This document shows, piece after piece, positions 3,925 through 27,708 of a DNA stretch of 47,606 bases. This DNA is from Gemmatimonadaceae bacterium. Lineage in GTDB: Bacteria; Gemmatimonadota; Gemmatimonadetes; Gemmatimonadales; Gemmatimonadaceae. The notes under the pieces are model-generated. The model did not search any database. It worked only from the letters and a program-made list of their open reading frames with translations, and was not told the DNA's origin. The position numbers and the translations under genes are program-made. The stretch is from assembly GCA_025927495.1 (NCBI GenBank), contig JAICLH010000002.1, positions 1 to 47,606 of the forward strand, read 5' to 3'. Position 1 is the first letter of the stretch. Every line of letters begins with the position of its first letter.

Positions 3925-4541
3925 TGTCCCATGATCGCGAGGCGATGGTCCGGCGCGGCTTGCGGTTGAACTACCTGACGCTTGCGTACAATACGCTCGA
4001 GGCGATCCTGTCGCTCGCCGCGGCCGTTCGCTCCGGCAGCATCGCGCTCATGGGCTTTGGTTTCGACAGCGTCATCGAAGTCGCGGCCAGCGGTGCCGCG
4101 CAGTGGCGCCTCCGCGCCGACGCCGATCGCGCGAGGCGGGCGCGCGTCGAGCGCCGCACGGCGCAGATCATCGCGGGGTCGTTTCTCCTGTTAGGCATCT
4201 ATGTCCTCGCCGACAGCATCACATCGCTGTGGCGGCGCGAGCAACCGCAACGCAGTATCCTGGGCCTGGTCGTGTTGGGCGTTTCTGTCGTCGTCATGCC
4301 CGTGCTGGCGCGCGCCAAGCGGCGCGTGGCGCTTCGCGTGGACAGCGTCGCGCTGTCGGGCGAGGCCGCACAGACATCGCTGTGCGCGTACCTCTCGGCA
4401 ATCGCACTCGCCGGCGTCGGGCTGAATGCCTGGCTCGGCTGGTGGTGGGCGGACCCGGTCGCCGCTCTGGCCATGGTGCCGATCATGGCGCGCGAGGCGG
4501 CCGAAGGCTTGCGCGGCCGCCGCTGTTCGGACGGTTGCTAG
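3921..4541 (+). CDS. Cation-efflux (CDF-like) transmembrane protein
   Basis: MMSHDREAMVRRGLRLNYLTLAYNTLEAILSLAAAVRSGSIALMGFGFDSVIEV...; start overlaps cusA stop; the track ORF from 3354 runs antecedent out-of-frame cusA sequence into this gene. Confidence 0.8.
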   Translation: MMSHDREAMVRRGLRLNYLTLAYNTLEAILSLAAAVRSGSIALMGFGFDSVIEVAASGAAQWRLRADADRARRARVERRTAQIIAGSFLLLGIYVLADSITSLWRREQPQRSILGLVVLGVSVVVMPVLARAKRRVALRVDSVALSGEAAQTSLCAYLSAIALAGVGLNAWLGWWWADPVAALAMVPIMAREAAEGLRGRRCSDGC

Positions 4542-4616
4542 TCTCGCTGTTCGGAAGTACGGTGACGTAGAGTGCCTCGGAATGCACCGGACGAACTGAG
4601 TTGAGCCGATTGAGCG

Positions 4617-5349
4617 GGCAACTCCCCGTGGTCCGTCATGCGTTGTTCGTGTCGTGCTTTCCTACCCGTCGTCCGTGTGCGTTGTTCGTGATCAGTGCTT
4701 ATCCGGGCGAAAATGATGTGACCGGAGCCCGACCGATGATGGACTGCCCCGCGAGACGGCCATTATCCGCCCATGCAAGATTTCCACAATCTTCGCGCCT
4801 GGAACGAAGCGAACAGCCTCGCGATCTCGATCAAGCGGCTCACGAGCGGATTTCCGAAGGCTGACTACGGCTCGCTGCGGAGCCAAATGGTGCGTGCCGC
4901 GGAGTTGATCGCCGACAACATCGCCGAAGGGTGCGGCGCAGCGACGAACGCCGAGTTCGCACGCTACCTGGATATGGCCATCAAGTCTTCGTCGGAGCTC
5001 GAGAACCAGATCGAGCGCACCCACGGGTATGGCCTGACACGCGATCGGGACCGTCAGCGTCTTGCGGGCCACGTGTGCGACGTGCGGAAAATGACGTGGG
5101 GGCTGCACAAGAAGGTGCTCGCCGCTCCCCAGAACCCCGCTCGGCCTTAGTAGCCGCTCACGGCCGTCGCCGGATGACGAACACTGAAGGACGGACCACG
5201 GGTAGGAAAGCACGCAACGAACAACGACTGACGGACCACCTCCCGCGCCACACTGCGCCTCGGTGGTGCGGTCGATCGCTTGAATGAGCCGCAGATGCTC
5301 TCAATCTCCTCCCGTCGACACGTTTCGTCGCCGCGCTTCGGAACAGGAC
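4617..5349. mobile_element. IVS-like element copy A: long imperfect inverted repeat flanking a four-helix-bundle gene, plus ~100-bp right tail
   Basis: Left arm 4628-4706 and right arm 5170-5239 are reverse complements (about 44/49 over the best block, including TCGTTGTTCG and CGTGCTTTCCTACCCGT). Arms and tail recur at 25644-25937 without the ORF. Confidence 0.75.
4773..5150 (+). CDS. Four-helix-bundle protein (23S rRNA intervening-sequence protein / S23 family, Avd-like fold)
   Basis: MQDFHNLRAWNEANSLAISIKRLTSGFPKADYGSLRSQMVRAAELIADNIAEGCGAATNAEFARYLDMAIKSSSELENQIE, a typical family signature. Confidence 0.9.
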   Translation: MQDFHNLRAWNEANSLAISIKRLTSGFPKADYGSLRSQMVRAAELIADNIAEGCGAATNAEFARYLDMAIKSSSELENQIERTHGYGLTRDRDRQRLAGHVCDVRKMTWGLHKKVLAAPQNPARP

Positions 5350-5352
5350 TCC

Positions 5353-6060
5353 CTAGTCGACCGAAAACGCCCGCCGGAACGCATCGACCGCCGGCGGTCC
5401 CGAGCCCGTTCCTTCGTCGTGCTTGAAGTACACGTAGGCCTCGGCCCACGGCAGCCCGCCCAGCTTCCCGGCCCAACCGCCTAACGCAGCGTCGTCGTAG
5501 TCCAGCCGGTGCAGCCGCGCATACCCCCACGGCGCCGTCGCTACCACCGGCGACGCGAATTCCGGCTGCTCCGTGATGCACATCGCGATTCCCCGCCCCC
5601 GCAGCACCTCGTACACCTCATCCTCGAACCACGTGGGATTGCGGAACTCGATCGTGAACTTTCTGTCGTGCGGCAGCGTGTCGACGAACGCCCGGAGCCG
5701 CGGCACGTCCTTCTTCAAGTTAGGCGGCAGCTGAAAGAGCACCGGGCCTAACCGGCCGCCCAACACCGACGTGTTCGCGAGCAGAAATTCCACCGCGCTC
5801 GCGCATTCCGGTTTGAGCCGCGCGTGGTGCGTGATCCGCTGGCTCGCCTTGATCGCGAACGTGAACTGCTCCGGCACCTGCGCGGCCCATTCCCGCAGCA
5901 CGTGCTCCTTCGGCAGCCGGTAAAACGTGTTGTTGATCTCGACGCTCGGAAACTTCCCCGCGTAGAAGCCGAGCATGCCGTCGTCCTTCAAGTCATCCGG
6001 GTAGAACGAGCCCTTCCATTCCTTGAACGCGTACCCGCTCGTCCCCGCGATCAACTTCAC
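5353..6060 (-). CDS. DUF72 domain protein (YecE-like)
   Basis: MKLIAGTSGYAFKEWKGSFYPDDLKDDGMLGFYAGKFPSVEINNTFYRLP; start overlaps the Ku stop. Confidence 0.92.
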   Translation of the reverse strand: MKLIAGTSGYAFKEWKGSFYPDDLKDDGMLGFYAGKFPSVEINNTFYRLPKEHVLREWAAQVPEQFTFAIKASQRITHHARLKPECASAVEFLLANTSVLGGRLGPVLFQLPPNLKKDVPRLRAFVDTLPHDRKFTIEFRNPTWFEDEVYEVLRGRGIAMCITEQPEFASPVVATAPWGYARLHRLDYDDAALGGWAGKLGGLPWAEAYVYFKHDEGTGSGPPAVDAFRRAFSVD

Positions 6061-25617: not shown

Positions 25618-25643
25618 GCAAGAGGATGGGGAAGCGCGCACTG

Positions 25644-25937
25644 GGGCAATTCCCCGTGGTTCGTCATTCGTTGTTCGTGTCGTGCTTTCCTACCCGTCGT
25701 CCGTGTGCGTTGTTCGTGATCAGTGCTTATCCTGGCGAAAATGATGTGACGGAGCTCGCCGGATGACGAACACCGAAGGACGGACTACGGGTTGGAAAGC
25801 ACGCAACGAACAACGACTGACGGACCACTTCCCGCGCCACACTGCGCCTCGGTGATGCGGTCAATCGCTTCGTTAGGCCGGAGACGCTCTCTATATGCCT
25901 GCCGCGAGATGTTTCGTCACCGCGATTTGGACAGGAC
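25644..25937. mobile_element. ORF-less copy B of the 4617-5349 inverted-repeat element
   Basis: Left arm 25656-25732 and right arm 25759-25828 nearly identical to copy A arms but joined directly; ~100-bp right tail to ACAGGAC also shared. Confidence 0.8.
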
Positions 25938-25968
25938 CACGTAGGGAAGCGCTGACGCTGGGGGAATG

Positions 25969-25982
25969 GGGAAGCGCTTCCC
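25969..25982. repeat. Palindrome GGGAAGCGCTTCCC, part of a GGGAAGCGC/GCGCTTCCC cluster
   Basis: Perfect 14-bp palindrome; further copies at ~25944 and 26000-26010; possible terminator for the minus-strand kinase. Confidence 0.6.
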
Positions 25983-26007
25983 TAAGCGCGGGCCAGCGCG
26001 CGCTTCC

Positions 26008-27708
26008 CTAAAGCTCGCCGCCCGGCAGCACGAGCGTGAACGTCGATCCCACCCCCACCGCGCTCACCACCGTCAAATCGCCGCCCATCGCCCGCGCGAG
26101 ATGGCGGCTGATCGCCAGGCCTAACCCGACGCCCTGCTGGCTGCCGGGCGTCGACTGGCGGTCGATCTGCACGAACGGCTCGAACACGCTGGCCAGCTTC
26201 TCCTCTGGAATCCCGCGGCCCGTGTCCGCGACGCGCACCGCCACCATACGCCGGCCGTTCCTCGGCCCGCGCTCGTGCGCCTGCGACAGCTCGTCGCACA
26301 CGACCTGCACGCTCCCGCCGCTCGCCGTGAACTTGCACGCGTTGCTCAGCAGGTTGAGCAGAATCTGCTGCAGCTTTTCCGCGTCGGCGTGCACCGTGAG
26401 CCCCTCGGTGGCGCCTGCCTCGCGGTACGCGAGCCCTTTGGCGCGCATCTGCGGCGCCATGAGCGCCTCCACGTTCGTCATGACCTCGGCAATCCGGACA
26501 TCGCCTAACTGCAGATCCAGGCGTCCGGCCTCGATGCGCGCCAGATTCAGGATGTCGTTGATCAACGACAACAGATGCTGGCCGCTCTTCTTGATGCGCG
26601 CGAGATCCTGGCGTTGGGCATCGGTCACCGGGCCGCGCAGCTCCATGGCCAGGAGATCCACGTAGCCGCTGATGGCGTTGAGCGGTGTGCGCAGCTCGTG
26701 ACTCATGGTCGCCAGAAACTCCGACTTGGCCGCACTCGCCGTCTCGGCGGCCTGACGCGCCGCCTGCACCACCTGTCGCTCCTGCTCGAGATCGAGCACG
26801 ACGCGCTCGAGCTCGACGTTCACCGTGTGCAGGTCCTCGTTCGCATGCGTCAATGCCTCCGACTGCATTTCCAGCTCCGTCGCCTGCTCCTGGAGATGAT
26901 GCTGCTGTTGTTCCATCTCGAGCGCTTGCTCCTGCAACTGCTGGTTCTGGACCTCGAGCTCCTCCGCCTGTTGCTCGAGCCGCGCGTTCGAGAGATCCAG
27001 GTCGCGGCTCAGGCGCTCCTGCGAGGCGGCGTGGCGCGACAGCAACGTGTTCACCAACACCGCGACCAGCACCTCGACGATCGTGCCGAAGATGAGCACC
27101 CACTTGATGATGCCCGCCAAGCGCATCTCCCGCGCCGCTCGCGCCGCGAGGAGTGTTGTCTCGCGCTCTTCCATCGAGGCTGCGACGGCACGCGCCGCGT
27201 CCATGAACCGTTTGCCGCGACCGCTCTCGACGATCGCGACCGCCGAATCGCGCTGGCCAACACGGGCCATCCGGATGGTGGTATCGATGTCGGCGAACTT
27301 GTGGGCGCTGAGTGCGGCGAGCGTGTCGAGCCGCATCAGTTGCGCCGGCCGACCCGCGAGCAACGCGCGCAGCGAGTCCAAAGCGACCGTCGCGTCGCGC
27401 TCGGCTGCGAGGTAGGGCTCCAGATAATCGCCGCGGCCCGTCAGCAAATACCCGCGCTGCCCGGTTTCGGCGTCCGTTATGCGGGCGAGCACGCGTTCCA
27501 CCTGTTCGATCACCCGGTGGGTGTGTGCCACGTCTGCACGATCTCGCACCTGTGCCTGGAGGCCCGCGTAGACGAGTCCGGCGAACACCAGCACGACGAC
27601 GCCAGGGCCCAGGACCGCCGCCACATGTTGGGCCCGCGACCACTCCGTGAGGCGCGCGGCCAGGCGGCGCCGCCGGGGTGTCGTATGCTCATTCGTCGCC
27701 ATCGACAC
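26008..27708 (-). CDS. CHASE3-domain sensor histidine kinase
   Basis: VLARITDAETGQRGYLLTGRGDYLEPY (CHASE3-like); FLATMSHELRTPLNAISGYVDLL (HisKA); VADTGRGIPEEKLASVFEPFVQ...GLGLAISRHLARAMGG (HATPase). Start may be 27702. Confidence 0.92.
   Translation of the reverse strand: MSMATNEHTTPRRRRLAARLTEWSRAQHVAAVLGPGVVVLVFAGLVYAGLQAQVRDRADVAHTHRVIEQVERVLARITDAETGQRGYLLTGRGDYLEPYLAAERDATVALDSLRALLAGRPAQLMRLDTLAALSAHKFADIDTTIRMARVGQRDSAVAIVESGRGKRFMDAARAVAASMEERETTLLAARAAREMRLAGIIKWVLIFGTIVEVLVAVLVNTLLSRHAASQERLSRDLDLSNARLEQQAEELEVQNQQLQEQALEMEQQQHHLQEQATELEMQSEALTHANEDLHTVNVELERVVLDLEQERQVVQAARQAAETASAAKSEFLATMSHELRTPLNAISGYVDLLAMELRGPVTDAQRQDLARIKKSGQHLLSLINDILNLARIEAGRLDLQLGDVRIAEVMTNVEALMAPQMRAKGLAYREAGATEGLTVHADAEKLQQILLNLLSNACKFTASGGSVQVVCDELSQAHERGPRNGRRMVAVRVADTGRGIPEEKLASVFEPFVQIDRQSTPGSQQGVGLGLAISRHLARAMGGDLTVVSAVGVGSTFTLVLPGGEL

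Follow-up and report, generated by a model that had tools for sequence, protein, structure and literature searches.

Positions 25644-25937 of the window (the whole 47,606-nt stretch of DNA analysed here) hold copy B, an ORF-less, left-truncated relic derived by internal deletion from a transposon-like element that is specific to this genome and numbers ~40 copies. The left part of B (25644-25766) aligns with positions 4616-4739 of copy A in the same window at 94% identity (E 2e-47), and its right part (25756-25937) with 5167-5349 at 87% identity (E 4e-56), while A's four-helix ORF (4773-5150) is absent from B. These alignments bear out the sequence-only reading, in which B matched both arms and the tail of A, skipped the ORF-bearing loop and was taken for an ORF-less derivative; the family as a whole proved to be mostly ORF-less, and several of its deletion types are MITE-like, with the same junction at different sites. 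Folding of the B hairpin gives -102 kcal/mol for RNA and -62 kcal/mol for DNA; with z at -10 in both cases, the hairpin is not a product of chance.

Anatomy of copies A and B

The complete unit (type A, ~820 bp) exceeds the hairpin, spanning 4538-5356 in A, and comprises, in order, a CTAG target, a ~27-bp TIR, a leader, a 65-75-nt arm, a loop with the four-helix gene, the complementary arm, a tail, a TIR and CTAG (Table 1). The TIR is imperfect (CTGTTCGGAAGTNCGGTGACG on the left and, as reverse complement, CTGTTCCGAATTGCGGTGACG on the right), and alignment of the copies gives the unit a tail of ~110 bp. Both A and B are sited between protein genes, and both CTAGs of A overlap stop codons, those of the convergent Cation_efflux and DUF72 genes. 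B begins at GGGCAATT, so its left ~75 bp, including the left TIR, are gone; its deletion, 49|477 in A-loop coordinates, is private to it. Where ends are complete, most termini of copies carry CTAG or a one-base variant, so that TIRs and a target preference are features of the copies, of which B itself keeps the right end only. Rfam gave zero matches in the window and in seven relative loci.

Table 1. Features of copies A and B and of the repeat surrounding B, in window coordinates
Feature	Position	Strand	Basis
A left TIR with its CTAG target, which overlaps the Cation_efflux stop codon	4538..4567	+	
A left hairpin arm	4628..4693	+	
A four-helix-bundle protein gene (PF05635/TIGR02436), in loop	4773..5150	+	
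A right hairpin arm	5173..5239	+	
A tail	5240..5325	+	
A right TIR and CTAG; overlaps stop codon of convergent DUF72 gene	5326..5356	+	
GGGAAGCG-type hairpin repeat around B, left part	25627..25643	+	
B leader remnant (GGGCAATTCCCC)	25644..25655	+	alignment of copies
B left hairpin arm	25656..25721	+	match to A and folding
B residual loop with private junction 49|477; loop-edge motif GCGAAAATGATG kept	25722..25761	+	
B right hairpin arm	25762..25828	+	match to A and folding
B tail and right TIR (CGTCACCGCGATTTGGACAGGACCACGTAG)	25829..25944	+	alignment of copies
GGGAAGCG-type hairpin repeat around B, right part	25945..26012	+	

A multiplied, mostly ORF-less family in one genome

The source genome (G000; 3.55 Mb, 321 contigs, 75% complete) is the sole MAG for the A/B family, and DNA searches of five same-genus genomes returned no copy. 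Places matching B number 39 with strand duplicates merged, and family places rise to 47 once left-end, tail and A queries are added; many contigs end in the repeat, and some of the contig-end pieces counted may be halves of one copy. Four-helix ORF sequence is kept at three places only (intact in A, cut by the contig end in C306, internally deleted in C86); a fourth four-helix gene, in C209, is 31% identical and lies in another hairpin type. A, B and C232 form one arm subfamily. As in MITEs, the copies are many, dispersed and transposase-less, and have internal deletions in common.

Most family copies carry parts of the outer ends (the TIR at CTAG and the ~110-bp tail), three (L016, L030 and L031) look hairpin-only, with neither TIR nor tail, and in two (L113 and L114) the leader is joined to the tail and the hairpin is missing. 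The earlier suggestion that the hairpin alone might be the mobile or functional unit holds in part, although in this family the hairpin usually does not make up the complete unit: hairpin-only copies speak for it, as does the L030 site, which is empty in a congener, whereas the prevalence of outer ends, the two hairpin-less copies and the condition of B itself, a left-truncated relic with a private junction, speak against it.

Deletion junctions were expressed in A-loop coordinates, with L009 and L014 counted once on account of their same upstream flank. A genome-wide comparison of junctions, which the sequence-only reading had put forward as the check on a one-off decay product, gave a mixed picture: endpoints vary (about ten types), yet several types have multiplied. 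Junction 37|452 is exact in L009/L014, L036 and L042 and near in L029 and L024; 38|419-421 occurs in L027b and L026, with the same 3′ side in L015; and 35|471 is common to L018 and L020. The presence of one junction at at least two sites with different flanks indicates that ORF-less copies multiplied in a MITE-like manner. Pieces of the ORF 3′ end or of its 5′ flank persist in the ORF-less loops of L012, L015, L026, L033 and L035, and these copies therefore descend from ORF-bearing ones.

Three further arrangements were seen in this genome. The hairpin is inverted relative to the tail or leader in some copies, for example L019, L027, L029 and L042, as if the arms recombine. L009 (contig C87) and L014 (C70) hold a near-identical element behind the same upstream flank and represent either one locus assembled in two versions or a duplicated one. 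Finally, five A/B-family places (L010, L029, L041, L044 and L113) have a common left neighbour, CTATCCGAACCTCAGACGCGCCCCACTAG, beyond which GGGAAGCG-type arm sequence is seen where the contig extends; either the two form a compound unit or insertion beside that repeat has occurred repeatedly.

Empty sites and a second hairpin family around B

B is nested in another repeat, GGGAAGCG..CGCTTCCC (25629-26008), flanked by genes for a PadR-like protein and a histidine kinase. It is absent from the corresponding site in the congeners G001, G004 and G005: G001 has there an ORF-less GGGAAGCG hairpin (-207 kcal/mol) without B, whereas G004 and G005 have neither B nor the GGGAAGCG hairpin. This difference places B within a second family of ORF-less hairpins, one that is polymorphic in its turn. 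Arms of the GGGAAGCG type enclose no ORF at the B site or at the G001 site (L119), and a four-helix gene in C209 (L109).

The joined flanks of twelve other copies were also compared with the congeners. Element-free sites were found for at least five: those for L012, L023, L030 and L036 align across the junction, and the one for L019 does so with a small gap. At several of the compared sites the flanks are too diverged for exact junctions. L030 is a hairpin-only insertion, and a site in G001 aligns across its junction without the hairpin.

Inverted heptad arms around four-helix genes

The product of the A ORF is a 125-aa PF05635/TIGR02436 four-helix protein (E 2e-22), to which the closest solved chain by sequence is XCC0516 (2GSC; E 1e-11). 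PF05635 relatives are present in 42 of the 60 genomes searched with query P0001, up to nine per genome, and no relative was found in viral contigs. Inverted arms scoring >30 bits surround 43 of the 59 four-helix loci at which the gene could be placed; shuffled pairs exceeded this score in 1 case of 200. Arm sequences are unlike between loci, yet they are built of 7/14-bp repeats: across the 59 pooled loci, the 5′ arms match themselves with a mean identity of 0.505 at lag 7, 0.497 at lag 14, 0.42 at lag 21 and 0.40 at lag 28, compared with about 0.26-0.31 at nearly all other lags and in control stretches. The loci were picked by similarity to P0001, and the shuffled-pair and lag statistics ignore relatedness. 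Units of 8, 13 or 14 bp also occur among the arms, and in A's own arms the heptad is only degenerate (lag 7, 0.39; lag 14, 0.43).

Cyanobacterial plasmid loci have the same arm type, with units such as GGGAACA, GGTGACA and AGTCAGG. On these plasmids four-helix genes lie between cas6/cas4 or cas10/cmr3 in L211, L215 and L218; heptamer arms flank L211 and L215, and those of L218 are weaker. The same kind of arms is found at L219 (Azospirillum AZO_p2), within a 23S rRNA gene, a finding that connects rRNA IVSs with the elements outside rRNA. The likeness to rRNA IVSs with and without an ORF, drawn earlier from the window, is thereby upheld: arms of this kind occur in a genuine 23S IVS.

Four-helix paralogues tend to group by genome in the tree, and the arms of closely related paralogues within one genome are wholly different. 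At one intergenic site, four-helix genes with unrelated arms occur in five genera (L146, L154, L095, L165 and L090). Vertical orthologues with drifting arms were considered for this site and ruled out, as the proteins form no clade; insertion there has therefore been repeated. L168 and L172 may be orthologous, although their node support is only 0.035.

Proposed mechanism and competing explanations

We consider it slightly more probable than not that B and its family are trans-mobilised TIR/hairpin DNA, with the four-helix protein as a hairpin-binding accessory. In its favour stand the copy number and anatomy of the family, the junctions common to separate sites, the empty sites in congeners, the heptad arms around PF05635 genes in general and in a 23S IVS, and the repeated insertion at one site. 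The arms would fold in single-stranded or extruded DNA; the four-helix protein, of the family of rRNA-IVS proteins and Avd, would bind the folded arms as a trans-acting accessory; and ORF-less copies with cis ends could still be moved by proteins supplied in trans. We infer a DNA hairpin as the active form and a role in mobility for the four-helix protein. Against this explanation count the failure to find a transposase with the same TIR in the assembled genome (~75% of the genome) and the lack of any known catalytic activity of the four-helix protein; the mismatch bias described below could also mean an RNA-level hairpin. The hairpin may be dispensable for some copies, as in L113 and L114, unless these are palindrome deletions. 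Paired change between the arms was also sought in the A/B family and is weak only, covariation being 0.816 within the same copy and 0.806 when shuffled.

An appreciable chance, short of even, belongs to an ordinary MITE, in which the TIRs and CTAG are those of a DNA transposon with its transposase in trans and the four-helix hairpin is a captured passenger. The 27-bp imperfect TIRs, the CTAG or near-CTAG at most complete ends (which we take to resemble IS630- or IS5-like targets) and the two hairpin-less copies all suit this explanation. It accounts less well for L016, L030 and L031, which are hairpin-only, and for the L030 site, hairpin-free in congeners. Nor was a transposase-bearing element with the same TIR found in the assembled genome (~75% of the genome), and relatives, in which this TIR was not seen, generally have arms around their four-helix genes.

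Rather doubtful, in our judgement, is an action of the hairpin in RNA like that of rRNA IVSs, in which it would reside in transcripts, be cut by RNase III and have its stem bound by the protein, spread being secondary. The presence of the same architecture within 23S rRNA and, in cyanobacterial operons, of four-helix genes with cas genes on either side is consistent with such a role. So is a bias in the mismatches between arms: read on the ORF strand, G-T is in excess of A-C both in relatives (117:71, p 0.001) and in the A/B family (73:35). That excess points to a single-stranded hairpin, whether RNA or DNA, and strand-biased mutation could give the same pattern. Against an RNA role stand the location of A between convergent genes and a promoter-like motif conserved in many relatives, 43-44 nt upstream of the start codon and inside the loop; as a putative promoter, this motif suggests that the four-helix gene's transcript starts downstream of the 5′ arm and so would lack it. 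A sigma-70 scan gave no match around A.

It is unlikely that the order of events was the reverse, with four-helix genes inserting into pre-existing hairpin repeats and the ORF-less copies representing ancestral targets. Such insertion would fit the wholly different arms of close paralogues in one genome, as well as the C209 gene, whose surrounding arms are of the GGGAAGCG type also seen in ORF-less hairpins, but the ORF-less loops of the A/B family that retain the ORF 3′ end or 5′ flank argue for descent in the other direction.

We regard as improbable that B represents no more than one-off decay of A: its private junction, its lost left terminus and the common arm subfamily of A, B and C232 are what decay would leave, while the other ORF-less types with the same junction at several unrelated sites, and the roughly 40 ORF-less places in the genome, are not. 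A retroelement, in which the hairpin would be copied by a reverse transcriptase acting in trans and an Avd-like protein would be the accessory, is suggested by the resemblance of PF05635 to Avd of diversity-generating retroelements (PMC10053308) and is very improbable; retro-mobility was rejected for lack of an RVT_1 match in all 6 genomes of the genus and in 13 of the 16 four-helix-bearing relatives searched.

Implications and comparison with known systems

We tentatively propose a broader reading, in which PF05635 genes inside and outside 23S rRNA mark one widespread class of mobile hairpin, its arms are inverted ~7-bp arrays made or renewed at each insertion, and its ORF-less members would be the source of the heptamer repeats of cyanobacteria, xanthomonads and others. 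Heptad-armed four-helix hairpins may in this way link two long-unexplained kinds of bacterial repeat. So far, rRNA IVSs, their four-helix protein, which has no assigned function, and heptamer repeats, which have no assigned origin, have been separate subjects; the same architecture across phyla, together with spreading ORF-less derivatives, brings all three under one testable hypothesis, namely that a hairpin conserved in shape and not in sequence has the four-helix protein as its partner in trans.

Like an ORF-bearing 23S rRNA IVS, copy A encodes a PF05635/TIGR02436 protein within the loop of its long hairpin, B being its counterpart without the ORF, and the Azospirillum plasmid 23S IVS shares with the relatives heptad-type arms around four-helix genes. 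Unlike 23S rRNA IVSs, the A/B family lies outside rRNA, numbers ~40 dispersed copies, has TIRs and a CTAG target, and is mostly ORF-less. With MITEs it has in common short, non-coding, TIR-bounded and dispersed copies and internal-deletion derivatives with common junctions; it differs from them in its long internal hairpin and in a parent that carries a four-helix gene, no transposase parent having been found in the assembly. PF05635 is related to Avd, the accessory protein of DGRs (PMC10053308), but in this genus, unlike in DGRs with Avd, reverse transcriptase was not detected.

The remaining comparison is with heptameric STRRs. According to PMC4692102, heptamer repeats, inverted pairs included, occur in Xanthomonas and Nostoc, with 70-75 inverted pairs of GGGAATC repeats per Xanthomonas genome; PMC4679880 describes TAACTGA heptamer repeats in Beggiatoaceae. 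Term searches of these papers met no mention of S23 or of the four-helix protein, and full-text searches, with subscription papers mostly outside their scope, returned no literature link of four-helix loci to heptamer repeats. The arms of the pooled four-helix loci, though A's own only in degenerate form, resemble the heptameric STRRs of cyanobacteria, Xanthomonas and the TAACTGA kind in their 7-bp units and mostly intergenic position. They differ in that the inverted arrays flank PF05635 genes, whereas the descriptions consulted connect the repeats to no protein gene.
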